Shown here piece by piece: positions 12,266-24,699 of a DNA stretch of 64,000 nucleotides. Where the stretch lies: contig NZ_CP116615.1 of NCBI RefSeq assembly GCF_024832785.1, positions 1,054,001 through 1,118,000 of the forward strand. Reading direction: 5' to 3'. Under the pieces are notes generated by a model. It searched no databases. It was given only the letters and a program-made list of their open reading frames with translations, and was not told the DNA's origin. The position numbers and the translations under genes were made by a program. The stretch is from Fontisphaera persica. Its GTDB lineage: Bacteria > Verrucomicrobiota > Verrucomicrobiia > Limisphaerales > Fontisphaeraceae. The first letter of the stretch is position 1; every line of letters starts with the position of its first letter.

Positions 12266-14629
12266 ATGAGCCGCATTGCAATCCCTCAGGTGGTGGTGTG
12301 TTGGTGTTTTTGGGTGGTTTGGTGTTGTGTCGGACTGCCGTTGGAAGCGGCGGAAGTGAAGGCTCCGCCGCCCGGCAATGTGTATTTGGCGGGGGAGGAG
12401 GTGGTAGTGCCGGTGCCGGGTGGGGGAGAGGGATGGGAGTTGCTCAGTTACCGCGATGAGAGCCGCGTGCCGGTCACTCTTCAAGGAGGCCGGGCTGTGC
12501 TGGGGCGTTTGCCGGTGGGTTTTTATCGTTTGCGCGCGAGCAACGCTGCGCCGGGGGTGTGGATTTCGCTGGCCGTCATAGAGCCCCTCAAAAGTCCCAC
12601 TCCGGCCCGTTCGCCCATAGCACTCGATGTCGCCATGGCCTGGTTTTATCCGCCGGAGAAAATGGAGGCTGCGGCCCGTTTATGCGCCCTGGCGGGGGTG
12701 AACTGGGTGCGGGACCGGATGACGTGGCGCGAGCTGGAGCCGGAGCGCGGGAGGTTTGCGGCTGCCACACGCTATGATGTGAGTGCGCGGGCGCAGGCTG
12801 GGGCCGGGTTGCGGGTGTTGCAGGTGCATCATCATTCGCCGGAATGGGCCAACCCGGTGACGAAACGTTTTCCGTTAGATTTGCGCGATGCGTATCGCTT
12901 CCAGCGGGAGCTGGCGCAGCGTTGGCGGGGTCAGGTGCTGGCCTTTGAGCCGTGGAATGAGGCGGATATTGACGTGTTTGGCGGGCACACCGGCAGCGAA
13001 ATGGCTTCGTTGCAAAAGGCGGCTTATCTGGGCATGAAAGCCGGCAATCCGCAGGTGATTGCCTGCCTGAACGTGTGGGCGCATCATCGTCCGGCCCAGT
13101 TGGAGGATTTCCATGCCAATGCCGCGTGGCCGTATTATGACACGTACAATTTTCATCATTATGAACCGTATGACCGCTATCCGGCTGTGTACGCGGATCA
13201 CCGGGCGGTGAGCGGCGGCCGGCCGCTGTGGATCACGGAATGCGCCATGCCGGTGAAATGGGCGGGGGACCCCGCTTTGAAGGAATTGCCGGATGAAAAC
13301 TTGTGGGATCAGTCCGAGCGGCTGGTGAAAACTTTTGCGGCTGCCTTGCACGAAAATCCAGCCATGGTGTTTTATTTTTTGCTGCCGCACTACGTGGAGG
13401 GGCAAACCCAATTTGGCATTGTGCGCCCAGACCTTTCGCCGCGGCCTGCGTATGTTTCGCTGGCGGCGGTGGGAAGGTTGCTGGCGGAGGCGCGGCCGCT
13501 GGGGCGCTTAAGCAACGGCCCCACCAATGTGGTGGCCTACCTGTTCAAGGCGCGGCCAGAGGGCAGGGAGCGCGAGATTCTGGTGGCGTGGACACGCAGC
13601 GGTGAGACGCCGCTGGCGTGCGTGGCGGATGCCGCATGGGATCACCTGGGGCGGCCCAAGCCGGCGAATGAAGGCGCGTATCGGCTGACTCCAGCGCCGC
13701 TGTTCATCGCGGTGAAGCCGCGAGGGCCATGGCATTTTGAGCCGCCCCCCAAAACTCCGCCGTTCCTGCCAGGCAAACCCTCGCCGGTGGTGTTGCAGGT
13801 GTTGTTGAGCGCGGAGCAGACGGTGCTGGCCAAATCTGCCGCCAAAGTTTCCACCGAGCGGCCGGAAACGCTGGCTGTCTATGCCTATAATTTTTCCGAG
13901 CGACCGGTGCGCGGCACTTTGGTGATGAAGCGCGGGGCGGAATGGGTTGCCGCCACGGCGCAGCGGGACTGGCCCTTACGCATGGAATTGGCCCCCATGG
14001 AGCGCCGCGAGATTCCTCTGCCATTGGATTTGCGCGGCAAACCGGCGCGGATGGTGGAGACGGTGCGCCTGGAGGGCGATTTCGGCACGGCCGGGCGACC
14101 AGTTCTCAGTTTCAATCTCATGCCCCACCCGCCGCGTTTTGACCGGGTTACATTGCTGGCGTTGAGCGGGGCCGGGGATGCTGGACGGTGGGCAAAGGAG
14201 ATTTCAGGCGGCGGCGAGTTGCGCATCGAGGCCGTGACGAATGGCGTGGTGGTGCACGCGGAACCCAAAGGCGTGGACCGCTGGGTTTATCCGCGCCTGG
14301 ATTTAATCGCGGGAGAGCGTCCACCGGAGGGCGCCACGGGCCTGGCCTTTGAACTGACGGTGCATGAGGGCGAGGGCAAGTTCCGGGTCATTTGGCGCGA
14401 GCCCGGCGGGGCCAGTTACGTGTCTGAGGCCACGGTGACTCCCAAGCCGGGTGAAACAGTGGAAACAGTGGCTTTATTTCGGGAGGCGGTGTTTGGGACG
14501 GGGTGGTCACCCTTGGACCCGGATGGGAAGCTGAATCCGCAAATATTGGAGGCGGTGAAAATCGGGGTGAGCACGCCTTCAACGCGAGTGCGTTACACGG
14601 TGCGCAACCTGCGCTGGGTGGCTTATTAA
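12266..14629 (+). CDS. Secreted GH-A clan glycoside hydrolase-like protein
   Basis: A 787-residue exported protein. The ATG at 12266 begins a clear signal peptide (hydrophobic VVVCWCFWVVWCCVG, then Ala-rich cleavage region); an upstream in-frame start would bury it. Residues about 120-420 look like a TIM-barrel of clan GH-A: LAGVNWVRDRMTWRELEPERG at the barrel start, a putative acid/base Glu232 in FEPWNEAD and a putative nucleophile Glu325 in PLWITECAMP. Most of the rest is beta-rich and may bind carbohydrate. The barrel resembles GH39/GH5-type enzymes, but the substrate cannot be assigned. Its stop codon overlaps by 4 bp with that of the convergent ferredoxin gene echF. Confidence 0.75.
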   Translation: MSRIAIPQVVVCWCFWVVWCCVGLPLEAAEVKAPPPGNVYLAGEEVVVPVPGGGEGWELLSYRDESRVPVTLQGGRAVLGRLPVGFYRLRASNAAPGVWISLAVIEPLKSPTPARSPIALDVAMAWFYPPEKMEAAARLCALAGVNWVRDRMTWRELEPERGRFAAATRYDVSARAQAGAGLRVLQVHHHSPEWANPVTKRFPLDLRDAYRFQRELAQRWRGQVLAFEPWNEADIDVFGGHTGSEMASLQKAAYLGMKAGNPQVIACLNVWAHHRPAQLEDFHANAAWPYYDTYNFHHYEPYDRYPAVYADHRAVSGGRPLWITECAMPVKWAGDPALKELPDENLWDQSERLVKTFAAALHENPAMVFYFLLPHYVEGQTQFGIVRPDLSPRPAYVSLAAVGRLLAEARPLGRLSNGPTNVVAYLFKARPEGREREILVAWTRSGETPLACVADAAWDHLGRPKPANEGAYRLTPAPLFIAVKPRGPWHFEPPPKTPPFLPGKPSPVVLQVLLSAEQTVLAKSAAKVSTERPETLAVYAYNFSERPVRGTLVMKRGAEWVAATAQRDWPLRMELAPMERREIPLPLDLRGKPARMVETVRLEGDFGTAGRPVLSFNLMPHPPRFDRVTLLALSGAGDAGRWAKEISGGGELRIEAVTNGVVVHAEPKGVDRWVYPRLDLIAGERPPEGATGLAFELTVHEGEGKFRVIWREPGGASYVSEATVTPKPGETVETVALFREAVFGTGWSPLDPDGKLNPQILEAVKIGVSTPSTRVRYTVRNLRWVAY

Positions 14630-14955
14630 TAGGTTTCCTTGTCCTTGGTGACGGTGGGTTTGCCGTGGTCGGTGTCCAGTTGCAGGCAATTCTTGGGGCA
14701 GACCTCCACGCAATAACCGCAGGAGATGCATTGCAGCCGTTCAATGCCCCATTTTTTGGCGGCGCGATTGACGGTGAGCGCGCGGGTGGGGCATTTTTTG
14801 GCGCACACATTGCAATAAACGCATTTGTCCTTGATGAAAATCAACTGTCCCCGGCTGTGGGGCAGGGGACGCCGTGGGGTAAAGGGATACTGGCGGGTGA
14901 CTGGCGGGTGAATGGCCCATTTCAGGGCCAGTTTGGCCATGGTAAAGTATGCCAT
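14626..14955 (-). CDS. echF: Ech-type hydrogenase ferredoxin subunit EchF (NuoI-like)
   Basis: A 109-residue polyferredoxin with two 4Fe-4S motifs, CVYCNVCAKKCP and CISCGYCVEVCPKNC, related to NuoI of complex I. In Ech hydrogenases this subunit relays electrons from soluble ferredoxin to the small subunit. The length and position as the last gene of the operon match the canonical echABCDEF order. It lies 11 bp after echE. The N-terminus has a short amphipathic stretch (MAKLALKWAIHP) that probably contacts the membrane arm, as in NuoI. The gene ends convergently with the glycoside hydrolase gene. Confidence 0.9.
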   Translation of the reverse strand: MAYFTMAKLALKWAIHPPVTRQYPFTPRRPLPHSRGQLIFIKDKCVYCNVCAKKCPTRALTVNRAAKKWGIERLQCISCGYCVEVCPKNCLQLDTDHGKPTVTKDKETY

Positions 14956-14966
14956 AAGCTAAATCC

Positions 14967-16043
14967 TCAACGTTCCGTGCAACTGATGCAGGGGTCAATG
15001 GTCAAAACCAAGACTGGCACGTCCGCCAGTTCGCAGCCCTGCAGGATTTTCAAGAGGGCTGGCAGGTTGGCGAAGGTGGGGGTGCGCACGCGGAAGCGTT
15101 CCAGGTTTTTGGTGCCGTTGGCCTTGATATAATAAATGACCTCGCCGCGGGGTTGTTCGGTGCGCGCGGTGAATTCGCCTTTGGGGTTGCCGGTGACTTT
15201 GACGCTAATCTCACCCTCCGGCATGCGGGCGGCCGCCTGGCGGATTAAATCCACACTTTGAAAGAGCTCTTCGCAACGCACGGCGCAGCGGGCGTAACAG
15301 TCGCCTTCGGTGCGGGTTACCGGCGCAAAGTCCAGGTCGCCATAGGCGGCATAACCGCGCAGGCGAGTGTCCTGGGCCACGCCGCTGGCACGGAGCATGG
15401 GGCCGACACAGCCCAGATCATAGGCTTCGTCCCGGCTCAGGACGCCAACTTCGCAGAGGCGATCCTTCACAGAGGAATCATCGAGGAAAATTTTCACGAT
15501 GTCGCGCATGTCGGACTCGAGGCGCTGCAATTCTTTCAAGACTTCCTGCATCTGGTCTTTAGGGATGTCCCGGCGGACGCCGCCGATTTTGCAGGCGCCG
15601 AATATCACGCGCCCGCCGGTGGTGGCTTCAATCAAGTCCAACAGGCGCTCGCGCACGCGCCAGGCATGCATGAACAGCGCCTCGAAACCAAAGGCATCTG
15701 CCGTCAGACCGAGCCACAGGAGATGGCTGTGAATGCGCGACATTTCCCCCCAGATGACGCGCAGGTATTGGGCGCGGGGCGGGACGGGGATTTGCATCAA
15801 TTCCTCGACGGCGTGGCAGAAGGTCTCACCATGGATGAAACTGCAAATGCCGCACACTCGCTCGGCCACATACACAAATTCCTGATAATCTTTTTTCTCC
15901 ACCAGCTTTTCCAAGCCGCGATGAATGAAGCCAATGGAGGGCACGGCCTCGACAACGCGCTCGTCCTCAATGACCAGGTCCAGATGAATTGGCTCAGGCA
16001 GCACCGGGTGCTGGGGGCCAAAAGGAATGACAGTGTGGGCCAT
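14967..16043 (-). CDS. echE: Ech-type group 4 [NiFe]-hydrogenase large (catalytic) subunit EchE
   Basis: A 358-residue NuoD-like subunit that retains all four nickel ligands: Cys64 and Cys67 in ERVCGICSFIHGE, and Cys352 and Cys355 in DPCISCTER. These residues are absent from complex I NuoD, so this is a true [NiFe]-hydrogenase of group 4 and not a complex I fragment. The protein ends exactly at the final Arg of the second motif, with no C-terminal peptide to remove. Hydrogenase-maturation protease processing is therefore probably unnecessary, as described for CooH. It reduces protons with ferredoxin electrons, or runs in reverse, coupled to ion movement through EchA/EchB. It is 8 bp after echD. 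Confidence 0.95.
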   Translation of the reverse strand: MAHTVIPFGPQHPVLPEPIHLDLVIEDERVVEAVPSIGFIHRGLEKLVEKKDYQEFVYVAERVCGICSFIHGETFCHAVEELMQIPVPPRAQYLRVIWGEMSRIHSHLLWLGLTADAFGFEALFMHAWRVRERLLDLIEATTGGRVIFGACKIGGVRRDIPKDQMQEVLKELQRLESDMRDIVKIFLDDSSVKDRLCEVGVLSRDEAYDLGCVGPMLRASGVAQDTRLRGYAAYGDLDFAPVTRTEGDCYARCAVRCEELFQSVDLIRQAAARMPEGEISVKVTGNPKGEFTARTEQPRGEVIYYIKANGTKNLERFRVRTPTFANLPALLKILQGCELADVPVLVLTIDPCISCTER

Positions 16044-16051
16044 AGGTTTAG

Positions 16052-16501
16052 TCAGGATTGGGCAGCCGACGAGGGAGGGGCGGCCGGAATGGCGGTAAAG
16101 CTGGCGCCGGGCACTGCTCCCGAGCGCGGGCTGGCGCTGGAGCTGGCCGAGGCATCGGGATTCCGAAAGGGAAAGGGGGTGGCGGTTTTGATAAAATGGC
16201 CGTGAAAGTCCACGGCCATGCCCTCGACTTGCACGTCAAAGAGGTCGTGCATTTCGTTTTCGTACACAAAGGCGGCCCAGTAGATGCGGCTGATGCTGGG
16301 CAACCGGGGGGCGGCGGCCGGCAGGGTGACGCGCAAAGTTTGATAAACCCCCAGCCGGTCAAAGCCGTAATTAACCTCAATTTGCTCGCCGGCGGGGGTG
16401 GCGCTGATATGCACCAGCCGCCAGCCCTCGTGCCGCAGCATCAGGACACGTGCGGGTAGCTCTGCCACCGGCAGGGGTATGATGGTTTGATCAGCTTTCA
16501 T
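16052..16501 (-). CDS. echD: Ech-type hydrogenase subunit EchD (NuoC-like)
   Basis: A 149-residue hydrophilic subunit of the peripheral arm, related to the 30-kDa NuoC of complex I. The diagnostic core is YENEMHDLFDVQVEGMAVDF near residues 80-100, followed by the short FPF motif. It has no cofactor and acts as a scaffold beside EchE. The C-terminal 35 residues are a low-complexity Ser/Ala/Pro tail, longer than usual for EchD. The start overlaps the end of the echC-GNAT gene by 11 bp, so translation is probably coupled. Confidence 0.85.
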   Translation of the reverse strand: MKADQTIIPLPVAELPARVLMLRHEGWRLVHISATPAGEQIEVNYGFDRLGVYQTLRVTLPAAAPRLPSISRIYWAAFVYENEMHDLFDVQVEGMAVDFHGHFIKTATPFPFRNPDASASSSASPRSGAVPGASFTAIPAAPPSSAAQS

Positions 16502-17402
16502 GGCGCATTTTCTCCATATAGACCCAGGTCACCGCTTTGTCATGCGGCACTTCCTTGAAGGGGCGGTAGCCCAAGAGGCCGTAGAGGGCCAGGTTGCGCT
16601 TGCTCTTGTGGCCGGTGAAGGCCTCGAAACGGCGAATGGCCGGCGGCCATACGGCTTCGATTTCCTTGACCAACCGCCGTCCGATGCCACGGCCTTGAAA
16701 ATAGGGATGCACAATCAGCCGCAGGATATGGGCGGTGTCGCCCTCGCTATAACCGCGGACGGCGCCGATGATTTTGCCATTGACCACTGCCTTGAGGAAG
16801 ACCATGCGCTGGAAGTCCTCACGTAATTCGGCCAGGCTTTGTTGGAGCGCCGGCACACTTTCGTCGCCATAGATTTCAGCCTCGCTTTGATAAGCCACTT
16901 TTTGGAGGGCCAGAATCTCGGCCACATCCTCGGGCGTGGCCTGCACAATGATGGTCTGGTCAATGCTGTTGGCGATGGCGGTCATGCGCCGGTGTTTTTC
17001 CTCGAGGACTTCCACCGCCTTGAGGATGCCATCAATAATCGCCTCGGGGCGGGCCGCGCAGCCCGGCACATAGACGTCCACGGGGATGACGGTGTCCACG
17101 CCGCCGGAGATGTTATAACAGTCCTGAAAAATGCCGCCGCTGGCCGCGCAGGCGCCCACGGCGACGACGACCTTGGGTTCTGGCAGTTGGTGGTAAATAT
17201 TTTGGATGACCTGGCGGCTCTGCTCATTGACGGCGCCGGTGACCAGGAAAATGTCCGCATGCTTGGGATTGCCGGTATTGATGACGCCGAGCCGTTCGGC
17301 GTCGTACAAAGGGGTGAGACAGGCCAGGGTCTCGATGTCACAGCCGTTGCAACTGGAGGCATCGTAGTGGATGACCCACGGTGATTTCTTGAACCCGAGC
17401 AT
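16491..17402 (-). CDS. echC: Ech hydrogenase small subunit EchC fused to a GNAT acetyltransferase
   Basis: A 303-residue two-domain protein. Residues 1-140 are a NuoB/EchC-like small subunit with the proximal 4Fe-4S ligands Cys18 and Cys21 (SSCNGCDIE), Cys85 (VGACAASGG) and Cys115 (VPGCAARPEA). EchC proteins normally end about there. Residues about 150-303 are a complete GNAT domain with the acetyl-CoA pyrophosphate loop HPYFQGRGIGRRLV preceded by the ILRLIV strand, and a late LYGLLGYRPFKE segment. The ATG at 17402 is chosen because the family begins just before the KSPWVIHYD strand; an upstream in-frame start would overlap echB by 88 bp. Met140 at 16985 could be an internal start giving free acetyltransferase. 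The acetylation target is unknown. Confidence 0.9.
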   Translation of the reverse strand: MLGFKKSPWVIHYDASSCNGCDIETLACLTPLYDAERLGVINTGNPKHADIFLVTGAVNEQSRQVIQNIYHQLPEPKVVVAVGACAASGGIFQDCYNISGGVDTVIPVDVYVPGCAARPEAIIDGILKAVEVLEEKHRRMTAIANSIDQTIIVQATPEDVAEILALQKVAYQSEAEIYGDESVPALQQSLAELREDFQRMVFLKAVVNGKIIGAVRGYSEGDTAHILRLIVHPYFQGRGIGRRLVKEIEAVWPPAIRRFEAFTGHKSKRNLALYGLLGYRPFKEVPHDKAVTWVYMEKMRHES

Positions 17403-17419: not shown

Positions 17420-18274
17420 TTAATAGCGCAGCAGGGTCAGCGTTAGGATGTTGCCGAAACCAAGGGCCAGTGTCACTGCCCAGGCGCTTTTCACGGCTGT
17501 CAGCCACTTCAAACGGGCAAAGGTGTTATCAGTCAAAATCAGGAACCCATAAACGGCCAGGGTGGCAATCAGGCCTAGTATGGGCACAGAGGCAAAGAAC
17601 AAATAAACCCAGCCCAACAGTAGCACGGTTTCATACCAATGCGCCACTTCGATCATGGCCAGGGCTTTCCCGGAAAATTCCGTGGTCAAGCCCCGCACCA
17701 GTTCCTGATGGGCGTGGTGCGAGCAGGAAAAGTCGAAGGGGGATTTGCGGAATTTGATTTCCAGCGCGTATAAGAAACCCAGAAAAACACCGGGCAAAGG
17801 GCCCAAAAGCAGGTCTGGATGTTTCACGATGTCATGGACGTAGAAACTGCCGGTCACCAGGTAGATGCTGACGGCGGTGATGAGCACCATCGGCTCATAA
17901 GCCATCATTTGGATAAGCTCGCGCTCGGCACCCAGGAAACTGTAGGGCGAGCTGGCTTTGTAGGCGCCCAGGACCAGGAAGATTCCCGCCAGCGTCAGGG
18001 CAAAAACCACCAGCAACAGGTCTGAGCCGGCAAAAAACAGCCCGCCGGTGAAAATCATCAGCAGCAGGAAGAAGAAAATGTAAAAATTTTGCGAGCGGCG
18101 GACGACGATGGTTTCCTTGTTCCAAAGTTTAATCACGTCATAGAAGGGCTGCAGCAGGGGCGGACCCTGGCGCGCCTGCATGCGGGCCGTGAGTTTGCGG
18201 TCCACACCGGCCAGCAGGCCGCCGAGAAGGGGGGCTGCAATCAGATAAATAACCAGACGCCATCCGGGACTCAT
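17420..18274 (-). CDS. echB: Ech-type hydrogenase membrane subunit EchB (NuoH-like)
   Basis: A 284-residue integral membrane protein with about eight hydrophobic segments, homologous to NuoH. It forms the junction between the peripheral hydrogenase arm and the ion-pumping module. The conserved loop YDVIKLWNKETIVVRRSQ near residues 45-62 and the acidic segment GAERELIQMMAYEP near 115-128 are the characteristic NuoH/EchB signatures. KFRKSPFDFS and HQELVRGLTTEFSG follow in the later quinone-pocket-like loops. Its ATG overlaps the echA stop by 4 bp and the next ATG (echC) follows after 17 bp. Confidence 0.92.
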   Translation of the reverse strand: MSPGWRLVIYLIAAPLLGGLLAGVDRKLTARMQARQGPPLLQPFYDVIKLWNKETIVVRRSQNFYIFFFLLLMIFTGGLFFAGSDLLLVVFALTLAGIFLVLGAYKASSPYSFLGAERELIQMMAYEPMVLITAVSIYLVTGSFYVHDIVKHPDLLLGPLPGVFLGFLYALEIKFRKSPFDFSCSHHAHQELVRGLTTEFSGKALAMIEVAHWYETVLLLGWVYLFFASVPILGLIATLAVYGFLILTDNTFARLKWLTAVKSAWAVTLALGFGNILTLTLLRY

Positions 18275-20157
18275 AACAAGACAAATCCAAGTAAAAACAC
18301 CAACAGACTCAAACCCGCGAACAAACCGCCGCGGAGCAATTGATCTTCCTTGAGCAGGTCCTGGAAATAGTAGTTGCGCATGGTCATGGGCCGGGCGGCG
18401 CCGCGGGCATCCAGGAAATGCGTGTTGTTGCGCTCCACATTCGCCCCGCTCAGATAGGCATCCATGACATGGACCTTGCGCTTATAATTTATGAAACTCA
18501 GGGGGAACAGCCCCACCATGCAGAGCATGATGGTCATGATGATGAAATTGCCGTGGTCCATGGCGGCCGTGCGCCAGTACACCTCCATCACATAAGGCTC
18601 GACGAGTTCCGAGGAAATCAGCGGGAAAAACAGACAGGTCAGGCCGGTCAACACCGTTAGGGCTCCCATGGCCACCCATTCGCCGCGGCCGATGCCTTTT
18701 TCCTTGTTTTCGATGGCGCCGGTGACCTCCAGCAGTTTGCCCAGCCACTTGACCCAGAAGAACAAGGTGGGGGCCGAGCCAAAGCATACAAACACGGCCA
18801 GGAGCGGATAGGAATCCACCACCGCCTTGAGCACGGCCCATTTACTGAGCAACATGCCAAACGGCGCCAGAAACATGCCGGCAATGCCCACCTGTAAAAA
18901 CACGGAAATGCGCGGCAGACTTAAAATCAGGCCGCTCATTTTTTCGATGTCCCGGCTGTGCAACTTGTGCTCGATGACGCCGACGCAGAGGAAAAGCAGG
19001 CATTTGGCCACGGCATGAAAGACGATCATTAAAATGCCGGCCCAGACCGCTTCGTAAGTGCCGATGCCACCGCAAAGCACCACCAACCCCAGATTGGCTA
19101 TGGTGGAGTAGGCCAGCACTTTTTTGGCGTCGCTGGTGCAGACCGCCGCAAACGAGGTCACGACGAAAGTCACCGCGCCTGTCAATGCCAGCACGGTTCC
19201 CGGCACCGTGCCCCACAGTACCGGCGCCAGTCGCAGGATTAGATACAAGCCGGCTTTGACCATGGTTGAGGAATGCAACAGGGCGCTGACGGGGGTGGGC
19301 GCCACCATGGCGCCCAACAACCACCGTGAAAACGGCAACTGGGCTGATTTGGTTAAACCGGCAAAAGCGAGCAGGGCCACTGGCGCGAGAACCACCTCCG
19401 GCGTCTTTTGGAACAAGACTGCCAATTCGATGCTGCCGGCGCGGGTGTGAAACAGCACAATTCCCGCGGCCATGGCCAGGCCGCCCATGAGGTTCAAATT
19501 CAGCGCCCGGAGGGCGTTTTGGCGGGATTCCTCCGTTTGCTTGTAGCCAATCAACAGGAAGGAGCACAGGGTGGTCACCTCCCAGAAAAAGAAAAACCAC
19601 AACAGGTTGTTGGCAAAAATAATGCCAAACATGGCTCCCATGAAGATAAACAACAGGCCGAAAAACATGGGCCGCCGGTCTGCAATCTCGGGGTGGTGGA
19701 CGTCGTGAAATTCCCGCATGTAACCAAGGGCGTAGATGCAAATCAGACCGCCCACCACGCCATTAATCAAGGCCATGAGGATGGAGAATTTGTCCACAAA
19801 GAGGTTCTGGCCCACACGCAACTCTGCGCCATGACTTAACTCGAACCACGCCATGAGGGCGGTTTGGGCGAGCACCAAGGCAACCACCACGGGATGCCGC
19901 TGTTTCCATCCCACCCGCAGCAGATACATCGCCATGCCGCCTTCGCCGGCCAGCATCAACCAGTTGATCCAGTGGGTGTCCACGTGGAAGACATCACCGG
20001 TGTGAAACAGCCGGACAGCCAGATTGACGCTCAAAGCGGCAACAAACAAAACCGTGCCAATGACCACGGCGCGCCGCAGGCGGTCGGAGCGTATGCCCCA
20101 GAGGAGCAGTCCGGCTGCCCAAGGCACGGCGATCAATAATGTCAAAGCGCTCATCAT
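18271..20157 (-). CDS. echA: Ech-type hydrogenase proton-conducting subunit EchA (NuoL-like)
   Basis: A 628-residue polytopic membrane protein with many hydrophobic segments, homologous to the antiporter-like NuoL/NuoM/NuoN subunits. It is the first gene of the ech operon and the probable ion-translocating element. The family core is visible as FFFWEVTTLCSFLLIGYK (with the key membrane Glu), LPFSRWLLGAMVAPTPVSAL and LHSSTMVKAGLYLILR (with the conserved Lys). The C-terminus has a long amphipathic stretch before a last membrane helix, as in NuoL. The ATG at 20157 was preferred to a TTG five codons upstream; no strong ribosome-binding site precedes either. Confidence 0.92.
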   Translation of the reverse strand: MMSALTLLIAVPWAAGLLLWGIRSDRLRRAVVIGTVLFVAALSVNLAVRLFHTGDVFHVDTHWINWLMLAGEGGMAMYLLRVGWKQRHPVVVALVLAQTALMAWFELSHGAELRVGQNLFVDKFSILMALINGVVGGLICIYALGYMREFHDVHHPEIADRRPMFFGLLFIFMGAMFGIIFANNLLWFFFFWEVTTLCSFLLIGYKQTEESRQNALRALNLNLMGGLAMAAGIVLFHTRAGSIELAVLFQKTPEVVLAPVALLAFAGLTKSAQLPFSRWLLGAMVAPTPVSALLHSSTMVKAGLYLILRLAPVLWGTVPGTVLALTGAVTFVVTSFAAVCTSDAKKVLAYSTIANLGLVVLCGGIGTYEAVWAGILMIVFHAVAKCLLFLCVGVIEHKLHSRDIEKMSGLILSLPRISVFLQVGIAGMFLAPFGMLLSKWAVLKAVVDSYPLLAVFVCFGSAPTLFFWVKWLGKLLEVTGAIENKEKGIGRGEWVAMGALTVLTGLTCLFFPLISSELVEPYVMEVYWRTAAMDHGNFIIMTIMLCMVGLFPLSFINYKRKVHVMDAYLSGANVERNNTHFLDARGAARPMTMRNYYFQDLLKEDQLLRGGLFAGLSLLVFLLGFVLL

Positions 20158-20543
20158 GCTCAACTCAGACAACGGGGCGGCCCCAACTGGAATGTGGTAT
20201 TGCCAAGGGCAAAGGGGTGATGGCGGTTGGGATTAACCCGTTGCGGATATGGCGAATGGCCAATGATTGGAAGTTATTATCCTCCTTGCACCGAGACGGC
20301 GCAAGAGGGGGAGCGCAGTTTGAAGGGATGTTAAAGAGGAAGATGCTTGTTTCTAATTCTGAGACATGGGAGGGGTGGCGGTGAAGTGGCAAGAGTGTGG
20401 TTGGTATGGGCTGCGCATGACCAGCATAGAAGCTATTGGCGGATGCAAGGTTAAGTCTTATGGAAACAATAATCAAAAATATAAATATATCTAATCTTAA
20501 AAGATGAGATAATTAACCAAATCTGTTTAATCTTTGGCAAAAT

Positions 20544-20579: not shown

Positions 20580-20689
20580 GAACTATGAAAGCCAAAAAAG
20601 CCGAAAGAGGCATGGTGTCTCTGGGGCTTGCCCATGTTGGGGGGTGTGGGTTTCGGCTTAATTCCCGCAGGAAGGCATGGTGGTGCATT

Positions 20690-20696
20690 GGAGGGG
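20690..20696 (+). promoter_or_regulatory. Ribosome-binding site for an upstream alternative etfB start
   Basis: GGAGGGG lies 7 bases before an ATG at 20704 that is in frame with etfB and would add 11 residues (MAPVPIWHQAL) before the conserved EtfB start at 20737. No comparable site precedes 20737. The ribosome-binding site favours 20704, whereas family alignment favours 20737. Confidence 0.45.
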
Positions 20697-20736
20697 ATTG
20701 CGAATGGCGCCAGTACCCATTTGGCATCAAGCACTT

Positions 20737-21510
20737 ATGAAATACTACGTCCTAATCAAAATGGTGCCGGATACCGTGGAGGAGTTAATCATCGGGGCGG
20801 ACGGCAAATCTTTGGATACCGATGCCGTGCGCCCCAAACTTGCGGACAGTGACGAGCATGCCATTGAAGAGGCGCTTTTGTTGAAGGAGAAAATCGGTGG
20901 GGACGTCGCGGTGGTTGCGCTTGAGTCGCCGGAGGTGGAGGACGCATTGTTCACGGCCCTGGCCAAGGGCGTCAACCAGGCCGTTAAATTGACCGGCGAT
21001 TGGAGCCAGTTGGGCAGTTTGGGAGCGGCCCAGGTGTTTGCCCAATACCTTGCTCCGGATGGCCAATTGTCGGCGGACACGATGGTGCTTTTACGCAGCC
21101 AGGCTTACGATGATTTGGAGGGCGAAATTGGCCCGTGTTTGGCGGAGAAATTGGGGGTGCCCTTCGTGGGGGTGGTGACTCGCATTGTGCCGGGGGCGCA
21201 GGAGGTGAAGGTGACCAAGGAATTTGCCGGGGGGCTGCGGGGCGAGTTTGTCGTGCCGTTGCCTTGCGTGTTGGGCATTCAATCTGCCGAGAAGCCGCCG
21301 CGATATGTGCCCATTGCCAAGGTGCGGGCGGCGCAAAAAACTGCCAAAATTGAGGAGGTAGAGGGAGTGGCGCCGGAAGCCCAGCGTGCGTATGAGGTCG
21401 AGCGCATGTATTTGCCGGAGGCCGCCGGCCGGGCGCAGATGTTGGAAGGGTCGGTGGAAGAAGTGGCGGACAAGGTGGTGGAGGTGTTGGCCCAAAACAG
21501 TTTGTTGTAA
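20737..21510 (+). CDS. etfB: Electron transfer flavoprotein beta subunit
   Basis: A 257-residue EtfB that binds AMP or a second FAD and, with EtfA, carries electrons between dehydrogenases and a membrane acceptor. The family start MKYYVLIKMVPDT and the segment SDEHAIEEALLLKEKIGGDVAVVAL near residues 40-64 are typical. KGVNQAVKL, the ADTMVLLRSQAYDD segment and ELKVKVTKEFAGG-like strand EVKVTKEFAGGLRGEF follow in family order. A ribosome-binding site fits better with an in-frame ATG 33 bases upstream (20704), so the true start is open. It is the first gene of a long operon that continues with etfA and an EtfAB:quinone oxidoreductase-like gene. Confidence 0.9.
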   Translation: MKYYVLIKMVPDTVEELIIGADGKSLDTDAVRPKLADSDEHAIEEALLLKEKIGGDVAVVALESPEVEDALFTALAKGVNQAVKLTGDWSQLGSLGAAQVFAQYLAPDGQLSADTMVLLRSQAYDDLEGEIGPCLAEKLGVPFVGVVTRIVPGAQEVKVTKEFAGGLRGEFVVPLPCVLGIQSAEKPPRYVPIAKVRAAQKTAKIEEVEGVAPEAQRAYEVERMYLPEAAGRAQMLEGSVEEVADKVVEVLAQNSLL

Positions 21511-21533
21511 ATCATCAAAGGAAAGGAATCCAC

Positions 21534-22505
21534 ATGAGCCAGGGCATTTTAATTTGGACGGAACACCTGCGGGGGCAAATTTCCGAAATTACGTTCGAGA
21601 TGTTGGGGCTGGGACGGCAATTGGCGGATGCCTTGAAAGTGCCGCTTACGGCGGCGGTTGCTGGAGCAAACGTCACGGCTTTGGGCAGCCAGTTGGGCAT
21701 GGCGGACAAGGTGCTGTTGGTGGAAAATCCAGCGTTGACGCTTGCCACTGCAGCTACGCAGGCCTCGGTTTTGCAGGAACTCCTGCATCAGGAGCAAGCG
21801 GCGCTGGTTTTAGTTGGGGGTACCAATGTTTCCTTGGGGGTGGGCACTGTTTTGGCGGCGCGCACCCGGCTTCCTTACATTAATTTCTGCAAAGCAGCCC
21901 GGGTGGAGGATGGGGCGGTGGTAGCCACCAGCCAATTATTTGGCGGCAAGGTGCTGGCCGATACGCGCCTGGCGGAGCATCGCGGCATTATCAGTGTTTA
22001 TCCGGGCGCATTCCCGGCAGAGGCTGGGCGCCGTGCAGGCTCGCCGCAACTGATTCCGGCAGCCGTGGAGGTTGCGCCATCGCCGGTCAAGTTTGTTCAA
22101 TTCATTGAACCGGAGACGGGCGATGTGGACATCACCAAACAGGATGTTTTGGTGGCGGTGGGGCGTGGCATCCAAAGCCAGGACAACGTGGCGCTGGCGG
22201 AGGAATTGGCGGCTGCATTGGGCGGGGCGGTGTGTGCTTCGCGGCCGGTGATTGACCAGGGCTGGTTGCCGTTGAGCCGGCAGGTGGGCAAATCGGGCAT
22301 GACGGTCAAACCACGGCTTTACCTGGCCTTGGGCATCAGTGGCGCTCCGGAGCATTGGGAGGGCATGCAAGGCTCGCGGTTGATTGTGGCGGTGAATACG
22401 GACCCGAAAGCACCCATTTTTGATGGCGCCCACTACGGAGCGACGGTGGACGCGCTCGATTTGCTACCGGTGCTGACCGAAAAAGTGAAAGCGCGCAAAG
22501 GCTGA
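21534..22505 (+). CDS. etfA: Electron transfer flavoprotein alpha subunit
   Basis: A 323-residue EtfA. The C-terminal FAD-binding domain is clear: VAVGRGIQSQDN near residues 205-216, then ASRPVIDQGWLPLSRQVGKS near 235-254, then LYLALGISGAPEHWEGM and IVAVNTDPKAPIFD. The N-terminal domain starts with ILIWTEHLRGQISEITFEML. AAGG-type ribosome-binding sequence (GGAAAGGA) lies just before the ATG. It forms the ETF heterodimer with the adjacent etfB product. Nothing in the window encodes an acyl-CoA dehydrogenase, so the electron donor must be encoded elsewhere. Confidence 0.95.
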   Translation: MSQGILIWTEHLRGQISEITFEMLGLGRQLADALKVPLTAAVAGANVTALGSQLGMADKVLLVENPALTLATAATQASVLQELLHQEQAALVLVGGTNVSLGVGTVLAARTRLPYINFCKAARVEDGAVVATSQLFGGKVLADTRLAEHRGIISVYPGAFPAEAGRRAGSPQLIPAAVEVAPSPVKFVQFIEPETGDVDITKQDVLVAVGRGIQSQDNVALAEELAAALGGAVCASRPVIDQGWLPLSRQVGKSGMTVKPRLYLALGISGAPEHWEGMQGSRLIVAVNTDPKAPIFDGAHYGATVDALDLLPVLTEKVKARKG

Positions 22506-22551
22506 GGATTACGGCTAAATCTTTCGCCTTTGCGGCAACCTCGGCGTGGTT

Positions 22552-24699
22552 ATGGAAATGACGCTGCAAGTCAATTCCGTCCTATTAGCGGCGGGGGATG
22601 GGGTGTCGGCCATGGAAACGGCGGTGCGCCAGGCTGCGGCGGCAGGGGGCGTTCCTGATTTGAATCCTGTCAAGGGTGCCTTCCTGGGCCTGCCGGGGGT
22701 GTTGTGGTTGTGGGGTTTGGCCTTGGTGTCTTTCGGCCTGTTTGGATGGCGGGTATGGCGCATTGTTACTGCTTTGCGGCGGGCGCGGCCGGAAAATCGG
22801 TTTGACCAAATTCCCCGCCGTTTGCGGATGGTGGTGGACCATGTTTTGTTGCAGAAGAGGATTTTCAATGAACGGGCCATTGGCTGGCCGCATTTCCTCA
22901 TTTTTTGGGGGTTTGTGCTGTATGCCACGTGTTTCAACTGGTCCCTGGCAAGCGGGCTCTTCCCCTTCCTTAAACTGCCTTTCCCGGATGAAGTCCGGGT
23001 GGTGGCTTTTCTCCTGGAAATCTTTGCCGTCATTGTCCTGGTAGCCCTAGGGGTGGCTTTGGCGCGGCGTTTGTTCTTCCCCCCGCCTCGGCTGCATTTG
23101 AGTCTGGATGCCAATTTGATTTTGGGGCTTATTGCGCTTTTGATGGTCACCACGCTTTTGGGGTCGGGTTTTCGCCTGCAAGCCGAAGGCGGGCACACTT
23201 CAGATTGGGCCCCGCTGGGCAGTTTGTTGGTTCGGGTGCTGCCGGAGACTTCGCCAGCCACGGCCGCCGCGTGGGCCAAGGCCATGTGGTGGCTGCATAT
23301 GCTGGGAGTGTTTTTCTTCCTGTGCTATCTGCCTTTTTCCAAGCACATGCACCTGGTGGTCAGTCCGTTGAATGTATTTTTTGGGCGGCTGCAACCGGTG
23401 GGAACCTTGGATGCCCCGGGTACCAAGGAGGATTATACCACTGGCGCGGCGCATTGGAGCGAGTTTACGTGGAAACAATTGCTGTGCGGCTTTGCCTGTG
23501 CTGAATGCGGACGCTGTGACCGGGCCTGCCCGGCGCAGAACAGCGGTTACTCGTTGTGTCCGCAGGATGTCATTCAGAAGTTAAAACATCATTTTGAACA
23601 GGCCGCCCTCCAAGGTAATGGGGCGGTGGTCACCACCACTTCCAGTGGGGGAGCCAAAGAGGAGGCAATGCCGGTATTGGCCGGGGGGTTGATTCAACCG
23701 GCGGAGGTCTGGGCCTGCACCACTTGCATGGCGTGCATGGAATGTTGCGCGGTCTGGAATGAGCAGGTGCCCATTATTGTGCAGATGCGGCGGCATTTGG
23801 TCAACCAGGGCGCTGTGGATCGCGGCATTCAGGACATGCTCGACAAATTGAATCGCTACGGCAATTCCTTTGGCAAATCCGATCGGATGCGCGCCCGTTG
23901 GGTGCAGAATGGGGGCCTGAAAATCAAGGATGCCCGCAAAGAGGAAGTCGAGTACCTCTGGTTTGTGGGGGATTATGCCTCCTTTGATCCGCGTCTGGAA
24001 TCCATCACCCAAAAGACGGCGCGGTTGTTTGAAGCGGCGGGGTTGAGCTTTGGGCTTTTGTACGAAGCCGAACGCAATGCGGGCAACGACGTGCGCAGGG
24101 TGGGAGAAGAAGGTTTGTTTGAGGTATTGCGCGATAAAAACAAACAGGCTCTCGCGAAGGCGAAATTCAAGGTCATCGTTACGACCGATCCCCACACGTA
24201 CAACACCCTGAAAAATGAATACGGTTTGGAGAATGGCGTGCGGGTGGTGCATTACACGGAACTGCTGTGTGAACTGCTTGCCCAAGGCCGTTTGAAGCTG
24301 CGGCAACCGCTGCAGGGCAAAGTCACCTACCATGACCCCTGCTATCTGGGCCGTTATAATGGTGTTTATGAGCCGCCCCGGGAGGTATTGCGGCGGCTGG
24401 GGCTGGAGGTGGTCGAGATGCCACGTTGCCGCGGACGGAGTTACTGTTGCGGGGCAGGCGGCGGACGTATTTGGATGGAGGATGCGGAAAAGGTGCAGGA
24501 GCGGCCGGCGGAAAGCCGGGTGCGTGAGGCGGCAGCGTTGCCGGGGGTGCAAACGATGGTGGTGGCCTGTCCCAAGGACATCGCCATGTTTCGCGACGCC
24601 CTGAAAACCACGGGGTTGGAAGGCAAGCTGGCGGTGAAAGATTTGGCGGAACTGGTTTGGGAATGTGTGCAGGAGCCGGCGGCAACGACGGCTGCATGA
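22552..24699 (+). CDS. EtfAB:quinone oxidoreductase-like membrane Fe-S protein (NarI-like plus HdrD-like)
   Basis: A 715-residue fusion. The N-terminal third has about five membrane helices with His residues (for example WWLHMLGVFFF and SKHMHLVV) typical of NarI/HdrE-type cytochrome b. It is followed by a two-cluster ferredoxin module, Cys316 onward CAECGRCDRACP and Cys389 onward CTTCMACMECC. A CCG-type domain then ends with CYLGRYNG and CCGAGGGR (Cys632-Cys633). The first half of the HdrD domain has lost its cysteines (ERNAGNDVRRVGEEGLF), leaving one non-cubane cluster site. This architecture is that of the membrane EtfAB:menaquinone oxidoreductase described in syntrophic bacteria, and it lies directly after etfBA. 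The ATG at 22552 is preferred to a GTG two codons upstream. Confidence 0.88.
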   Translation: MEMTLQVNSVLLAAGDGVSAMETAVRQAAAAGGVPDLNPVKGAFLGLPGVLWLWGLALVSFGLFGWRVWRIVTALRRARPENRFDQIPRRLRMVVDHVLLQKRIFNERAIGWPHFLIFWGFVLYATCFNWSLASGLFPFLKLPFPDEVRVVAFLLEIFAVIVLVALGVALARRLFFPPPRLHLSLDANLILGLIALLMVTTLLGSGFRLQAEGGHTSDWAPLGSLLVRVLPETSPATAAAWAKAMWWLHMLGVFFFLCYLPFSKHMHLVVSPLNVFFGRLQPVGTLDAPGTKEDYTTGAAHWSEFTWKQLLCGFACAECGRCDRACPAQNSGYSLCPQDVIQKLKHHFEQAALQGNGAVVTTTSSGGAKEEAMPVLAGGLIQPAEVWACTTCMACMECCAVWNEQVPIIVQMRRHLVNQGAVDRGIQDMLDKLNRYGNSFGKSDRMRARWVQNGGLKIKDARKEEVEYLWFVGDYASFDPRLESITQKTARLFEAAGLSFGLLYEAERNAGNDVRRVGEEGLFEVLRDKNKQALAKAKFKVIVTTDPHTYNTLKNEYGLENGVRVVHYTELLCELLAQGRLKLRQPLQGKVTYHDPCYLGRYNGVYEPPREVLRRLGLEVVEMPRCRGRSYCCGAGGGRIWMEDAEKVQERPAESRVREAAALPGVQTMVVACPKDIAMFRDALKTTGLEGKLAVKDLAELVWECVQEPAATTAA

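Follow-up and report, generated by a model that had tools for sequence, protein, structure and literature searches.

How does the small subunit of an energy-converting hydrogenase come to carry an acetyltransferase-like domain, and what might that domain do there? This question is raised by a gene on the minus strand (16491..17402) of the window, the 64,000-nucleotide stretch of Fontisphaera persica DNA analysed here. An earlier note, prepared from the letters alone, had described an EchC-type small subunit with all four proximal-cluster cysteines, joined in frame to a complete GNAT domain. Both parts of that description hold.

The fusion gene and its operon

The minus-strand frame is open from the ATG at 17402 down to the TGA stop at 16491-16493, which places both domains in one chain of 303 amino acids with Pfam matches to each. 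Residues 1-138 (16989..17402, minus strand) constitute an EchC/NuoB-like [NiFe]-hydrogenase small-subunit domain, matched by the Oxidored_q6 model over residues 18-128 (E 1.3e-30). The best solved relative of this part is MbhJ, the small subunit of MBH (6cfw_J, E 1.5e-45). Ligands of the proximal [4Fe-4S] cluster are present at Cys18, Cys21, Cys85 and Cys115, and these four cysteines are invariant across 15 fused proteins.

The GNAT domain (PF13673/PF00583) spans approximately residues 149-300 (16503..16958, minus strand), and Pfam GNAT models match residues 176-299 above cut-off (E 1.1e-12 and 4.1e-12). Residues 232-245 read HPYFQGRGIGRRLV and include QGRGIG (residues 236-241, 16680..16697, minus strand), a putative acetyl-CoA pyrophosphate-binding loop with the G-x-[GAS] pattern and the (Q/R)xxGxG/A form by which the CoA loop of the GNAT superfamily is recognized. 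Tyr274 (16581..16583, minus strand) is the counterpart of the usual GNAT general-acid tyrosine, a position assigned by aligning the domain with YpeA and with the standalone family rather than from a CoA complex.

An AlphaFold2 model built with 34 sequences (mean pLDDT 84.5; mostly above 90 in the GNAT domain; unreliable at residues 27-42) confidently predicts a complete GNAT fold in the fusion protein. The modelled domain superimposes on 3f0a, a GNAT solved with acetyl-CoA, over 148 residues (Z 21.4, 1.6 Å rmsd). Residues 119-145 (16968..17048, minus strand; pLDDT 86-91) are modelled as one continuous helix that runs from EchC into the linker and bridges the two domains.

The earlier note also suggested that the GNAT domain could be made alone from an ATG at the junction (Met140, 16983..16985, minus strand). 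This idea fares poorly, as the closest relative, at 93% identity, has Ile at the equivalent position, Met occurs there in only 23 of 33 fused proteins, and the single chain is found in nearly every relative. Because the junction Met is not conserved, separate production of the GNAT domain from this ATG appears unlikely.

The fusion gene is part of an intact six-gene echABCDEF operon encoding the full subunit set of an Ech hydrogenase, all on the minus strand. Upstream are echA (18271..20172), for an antiporter-like membrane subunit (Proton_antipo_M, E 4.5e-51), and echB (17420..18274), for a NuoH-like membrane subunit (NADHdh, E 4.4e-44). Downstream are echD (16052..16501; NuoC-like, Complex1_30kDa), whose first 11 bases are shared with the 3' end of the fusion gene, echE (14967..16043; large subunit) and echF (14626..14955; NuoI-like 2x[4Fe-4S] subunit, Fer4 models). 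EchE carries both Ni-Fe ligand motifs, RVCGIC and a C-terminal DPCISCTER, and the complex is therefore a Ni-Fe hydrogenase rather than merely a complex I relative. The loci checked, whether or not they carry the fusion, share the gene order echA-B-C(GNAT)-D-E-F. The same genome encodes the [NiFe] maturation protein HypD (518.8 bits), pyruvate:ferredoxin oxidoreductase (PFOR, 1853.8 bits) and acetate kinase (AckA). Divergent from the ech operon, the stretch 20677-24699 appears from its translations to contain etfB/etfA-like genes and then a gene for an FeS oxidoreductase that includes a membrane domain, possibly a second electron-transfer module.

Distribution and history of the fusion

A survey of 320 genomes of the same order yielded EchC matches at E < 1e-60 in 18 genomes. 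Fifteen of these carry the fusion, one (G044) is unfused, and two (G121 and G257) hold an EchC on a more distant branch. The fusion is thus kept in 15 of 16 orthologous loci, and the longer EchC proteins with a C-terminal GNAT domain that the earlier note proposed to seek in related genomes do exist. Its counter-scenario, in which the fusion would be missing from every close relative, turned out to be the opposite of what is found. In a phylum-level sample of 388 genomes, fused forms occur in 8 of the 42 with an EchC match at E < 1e-50. A scan of named genomes added fused metagenome-assembled genomes (MAGs) titled Lentisphaerae, Omnitrophota, Phycisphaerales, Fibrobacter, Chitinispirillaceae and Spirochaetaceae, with the caution that MAG titles can be wrong; in this same scan the fusion was absent from the Ech loci of archaeal methanogens and Bacillota. 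A Lacrimispora candidate hinted at by the length of its match (residues 1-219) was rejected, as its frame stops after 155 open codons. The loci examined also include no standalone GNAT gene adjoining an unfused echC. Among the fused copies, one (L127) comes from a complete genome in the same class, 6.0 Mb in size (G399, contig 1, about 5329364-5330332).

Altogether, HMM searches recovered EchC and GNAT in a single frame at 40 loci, corresponding to 34 distinct proteins. One of these is cut by a contig end, and per-residue counts are given over the 33 complete ones. The same fused frame recurs in independent genomes, in 34 distinct proteins overall, which rules out a sequencing or frame error as the source of the fusion. 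The earlier note had left room for a gene-fusion accident, a view refuted by this conservation across several bacterial groups; a recent accident is likewise rejected on conservation together with the dN/dS values given below. As judged from these sequences, the EchC-GNAT fusion is a real and long-kept part of the hydrogenase.

In a tree of concatenated EchA, EchB, EchC, EchE and EchF sequences (75 loci, 15 fused operons), a single branch (SH-aLRT 89) sets the fused operons apart, and unfused ones surround them. The tree of EchC only is poorly resolved, but its likelihood is higher when the fused proteins and G044 are constrained to form one group (p-AU 0.948). Trees of the GNAT domain only recover the fused domains as one clade in one case (87/70) and require two changes in the other two; a single clade of fused GNAT domains has p-AU 0.391, so a single origin is not rejected, nor is it firmly established. 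These trees are compatible with one fusion event, and the simplest reading would be a single fusion that then spread by descent, possibly also by transfer, with loss in G044.

The unfused EchC of G044 (locus L016, 1498-1947) is 78% identical and is encoded in an otherwise identical ech operon. The GNAT domain is cleanly absent and echD overlaps echC directly, as in a natural deletion, and this state is best read as loss of the domain. Its genome holds no close GNAT elsewhere (best E 4.3e-6), and hence no standalone copy of the subfamily as a replacement. The closest standalone GNAT found in the order (G257, locus L186, 1450-1980) is 48% identical and 176 amino acids long, with no hydrogenase gene seen within 3.4 kb. 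In Bacillota, unfused EchC proteins at four loci (L089, L098, L103 and L114) bear tails of 100-130 residues. These were rejected as GNAT domains on their composition, which is of low complexity and acidic, alanine-rich or lysine-rich; the C-terminal end of EchC has therefore been extended more than once.

Selection and candidate function of the GNAT domain

The earlier note judged the GNAT frame to be free of decay, and the intact domain, its predicted complete fold and its substitution pattern agree. Between the window and relative G001, dN/dS is 0.056 for the GNAT domain and 0.011 for EchC; in three pairs without the catalytic tyrosine the GNAT value is 0.087-0.19, and in one further pair (L039/L040) it is 0.29, but with a small dS. 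All these values are rough because dS exceeds 1 in some pairs. Taken from such codon comparisons, the GNAT domain is under purifying selection. It evolves faster than the EchC part, with a mean pairwise identity of 0.62 compared with 0.85.

Key residues of the domain are kept unevenly. Of the 33 complete fused proteins, 32 keep the G-x-[GAS] element of the CoA loop, and 24, the window protein among them, keep the SEA motif on the acceptor side (alpha1-alpha2). All 12 standalone relatives have the alpha4 tyrosine that usually serves as general acid; among the 33 fused proteins it persists in only 15, one of which is the window protein. Fifteen of the 18 proteins that have lost it fall in one branch of the GNAT tree, and the tree as a whole places three changes at this position. 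A review lists this tyrosine as the conserved general acid in 62% of characterized GNAT enzymes, and notes that active GNATs without it exist and that the Y168F variant of AANAT has its Vmax lowered about 30-fold with activity not abolished (PMC4964394). As a pointer to a non-catalytic role, loss of the tyrosine is suggestive only. At eight fused loci (L013, L014, L015, L042-L044, L052 and L127), the GNAT domain is lengthened after alpha2, ahead of the following strand, by an insert that varies and reaches about 25 residues at most.

Acetyl-CoA and reduced ferredoxin are joint products of PFOR, and reoxidation of the ferredoxin by Ech gives H2 and an ion gradient, so that a domain on Ech that binds CoA would be well placed for feedback. 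We tentatively favour, at somewhat below even odds, an acetyl-CoA-sensing regulatory domain over a dedicated acetyltransferase, because the CoA loop is kept in nearly all fused proteins whereas the catalytic tyrosine is kept in fewer than half. The analogy is with PanM, a GNAT relative without acetyltransferase activity to which a role in sensing acetyl-CoA is ascribed (PMC4537548). The GNAT domain would be fixed on the C-terminal helix of the small subunit, which holds the proximal cluster. As acetyl-CoA from PFOR accumulates, its binding to the GNAT domain may report its level to Ech and regulate the complex, with the link to ferredoxin and the direction of the effect on the hydrogenase being conjectural. 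The conserved function would then be acetyl-CoA binding; some members, the window protein possibly among them, would still transfer acetyl groups, and others would have lost this activity. The fuller proposal is held with less confidence: that acetyl-CoA directly gates the hydrogenase by way of a built-in GNAT domain that is partly de-catalysed, in a feedback link between the two PFOR products which arose once and persisted in several bacterial phyla, seems rather unlikely as a whole. Two observations also count against sensing, in that Tyr274 and the SEA motif of the window protein fit an enzyme with an acceptor, and G044 does without the domain.

Those same residues, with the predicted complete fold and the CoA loop, suit a reading in line with the earlier note, in which an active protein acetyltransferase tunes the hydrogenase by acetylating lysines of Ech subunits, ferredoxin or PFOR. 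The wide retention of the alpha1-alpha2 motif is also consistent with an acceptor, and the nearest solved folds include protein acetyltransferases (RimI and Ard1) beside small-molecule enzymes, a mixture that does not discriminate. Such a general role is rather doubtful, given that more than half of the fused proteins have lost the tyrosine while their GNAT domain stays under purifying selection; for the window protein itself, acetylation of the hydrogenase or its carriers is possible. The domain could instead serve structure or assembly, or simply be tolerated as a passenger, and make no use of acetyl-CoA. Its faster evolution, its loss from G044 and the long EchC tails tolerated in Bacillota would suit this explanation, which is nevertheless improbable in view of the nearly invariant CoA loop, dN/dS values well under 1 and retention by all but one of the orthologues in the order. 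We consider it least probable that the domain acts on an unrelated small molecule, being merely co-expressed with and tethered to Ech. Verrucomicrobiota do have standalone relatives that are ordinary GNATs, but here a single chain with EchC is maintained across lineages, and G044 has no standalone copy of the subfamily in place of the domain it lost.

Relation to known systems

Searches of titles and abstracts for EchC, Ech or group 4 hydrogenases with GNAT or acetyltransferase returned no such fusion, in a coverage that lies mostly outside subscription literature. As far as the literature searched shows, no case has been described of a group 4 hydrogenase under direct control by a central metabolite that binds one of the enzyme's own subunits. 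If our favoured sensing reading is true, acetyl-CoA would influence, at the level of the protein, how much H2 fermenting Verrucomicrobiota and their relatives release, and fused and unfused Ech enzymes would provide a ready-made natural experiment.

Among known systems, the locus resembles the Ech group 4 [NiFe]-hydrogenases, with solved relatives MBH (6cfw) and formate hydrogenlyase (7z0s/7z0t), in its six-gene operon, in a small subunit with CNGC..C..C cluster ligands and in a large subunit with both Ni-Fe ligand motifs. This likeness is one of genes, from which ferredoxin-dependent H2 evolution and ion pumping are predicted. The difference is the C-terminal GNAT domain of EchC, found neither in the solved relatives nor in the archaeal and Bacillota loci examined. 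With the GNAT superfamily, the domain shares a complete predicted fold and the CoA loop, and it differs in its fusion to a hydrogenase small subunit and in the frequent absence of the tyrosine that the window protein keeps. PanM/PanZ, which senses acetyl-CoA and acts on PanD without acetylating it, is comparable by analogy only, in the proposed acetyl-CoA-dependent control of a partner protein. It is a separate gammaproteobacterial protein with another partner, and the window GNAT domain falls outside its family (NF033213, 20.6 bits compared with a cut-off of 68). Both halves of the fusion protein are already known; what is new is their union, its breadth and its pattern of conservation.
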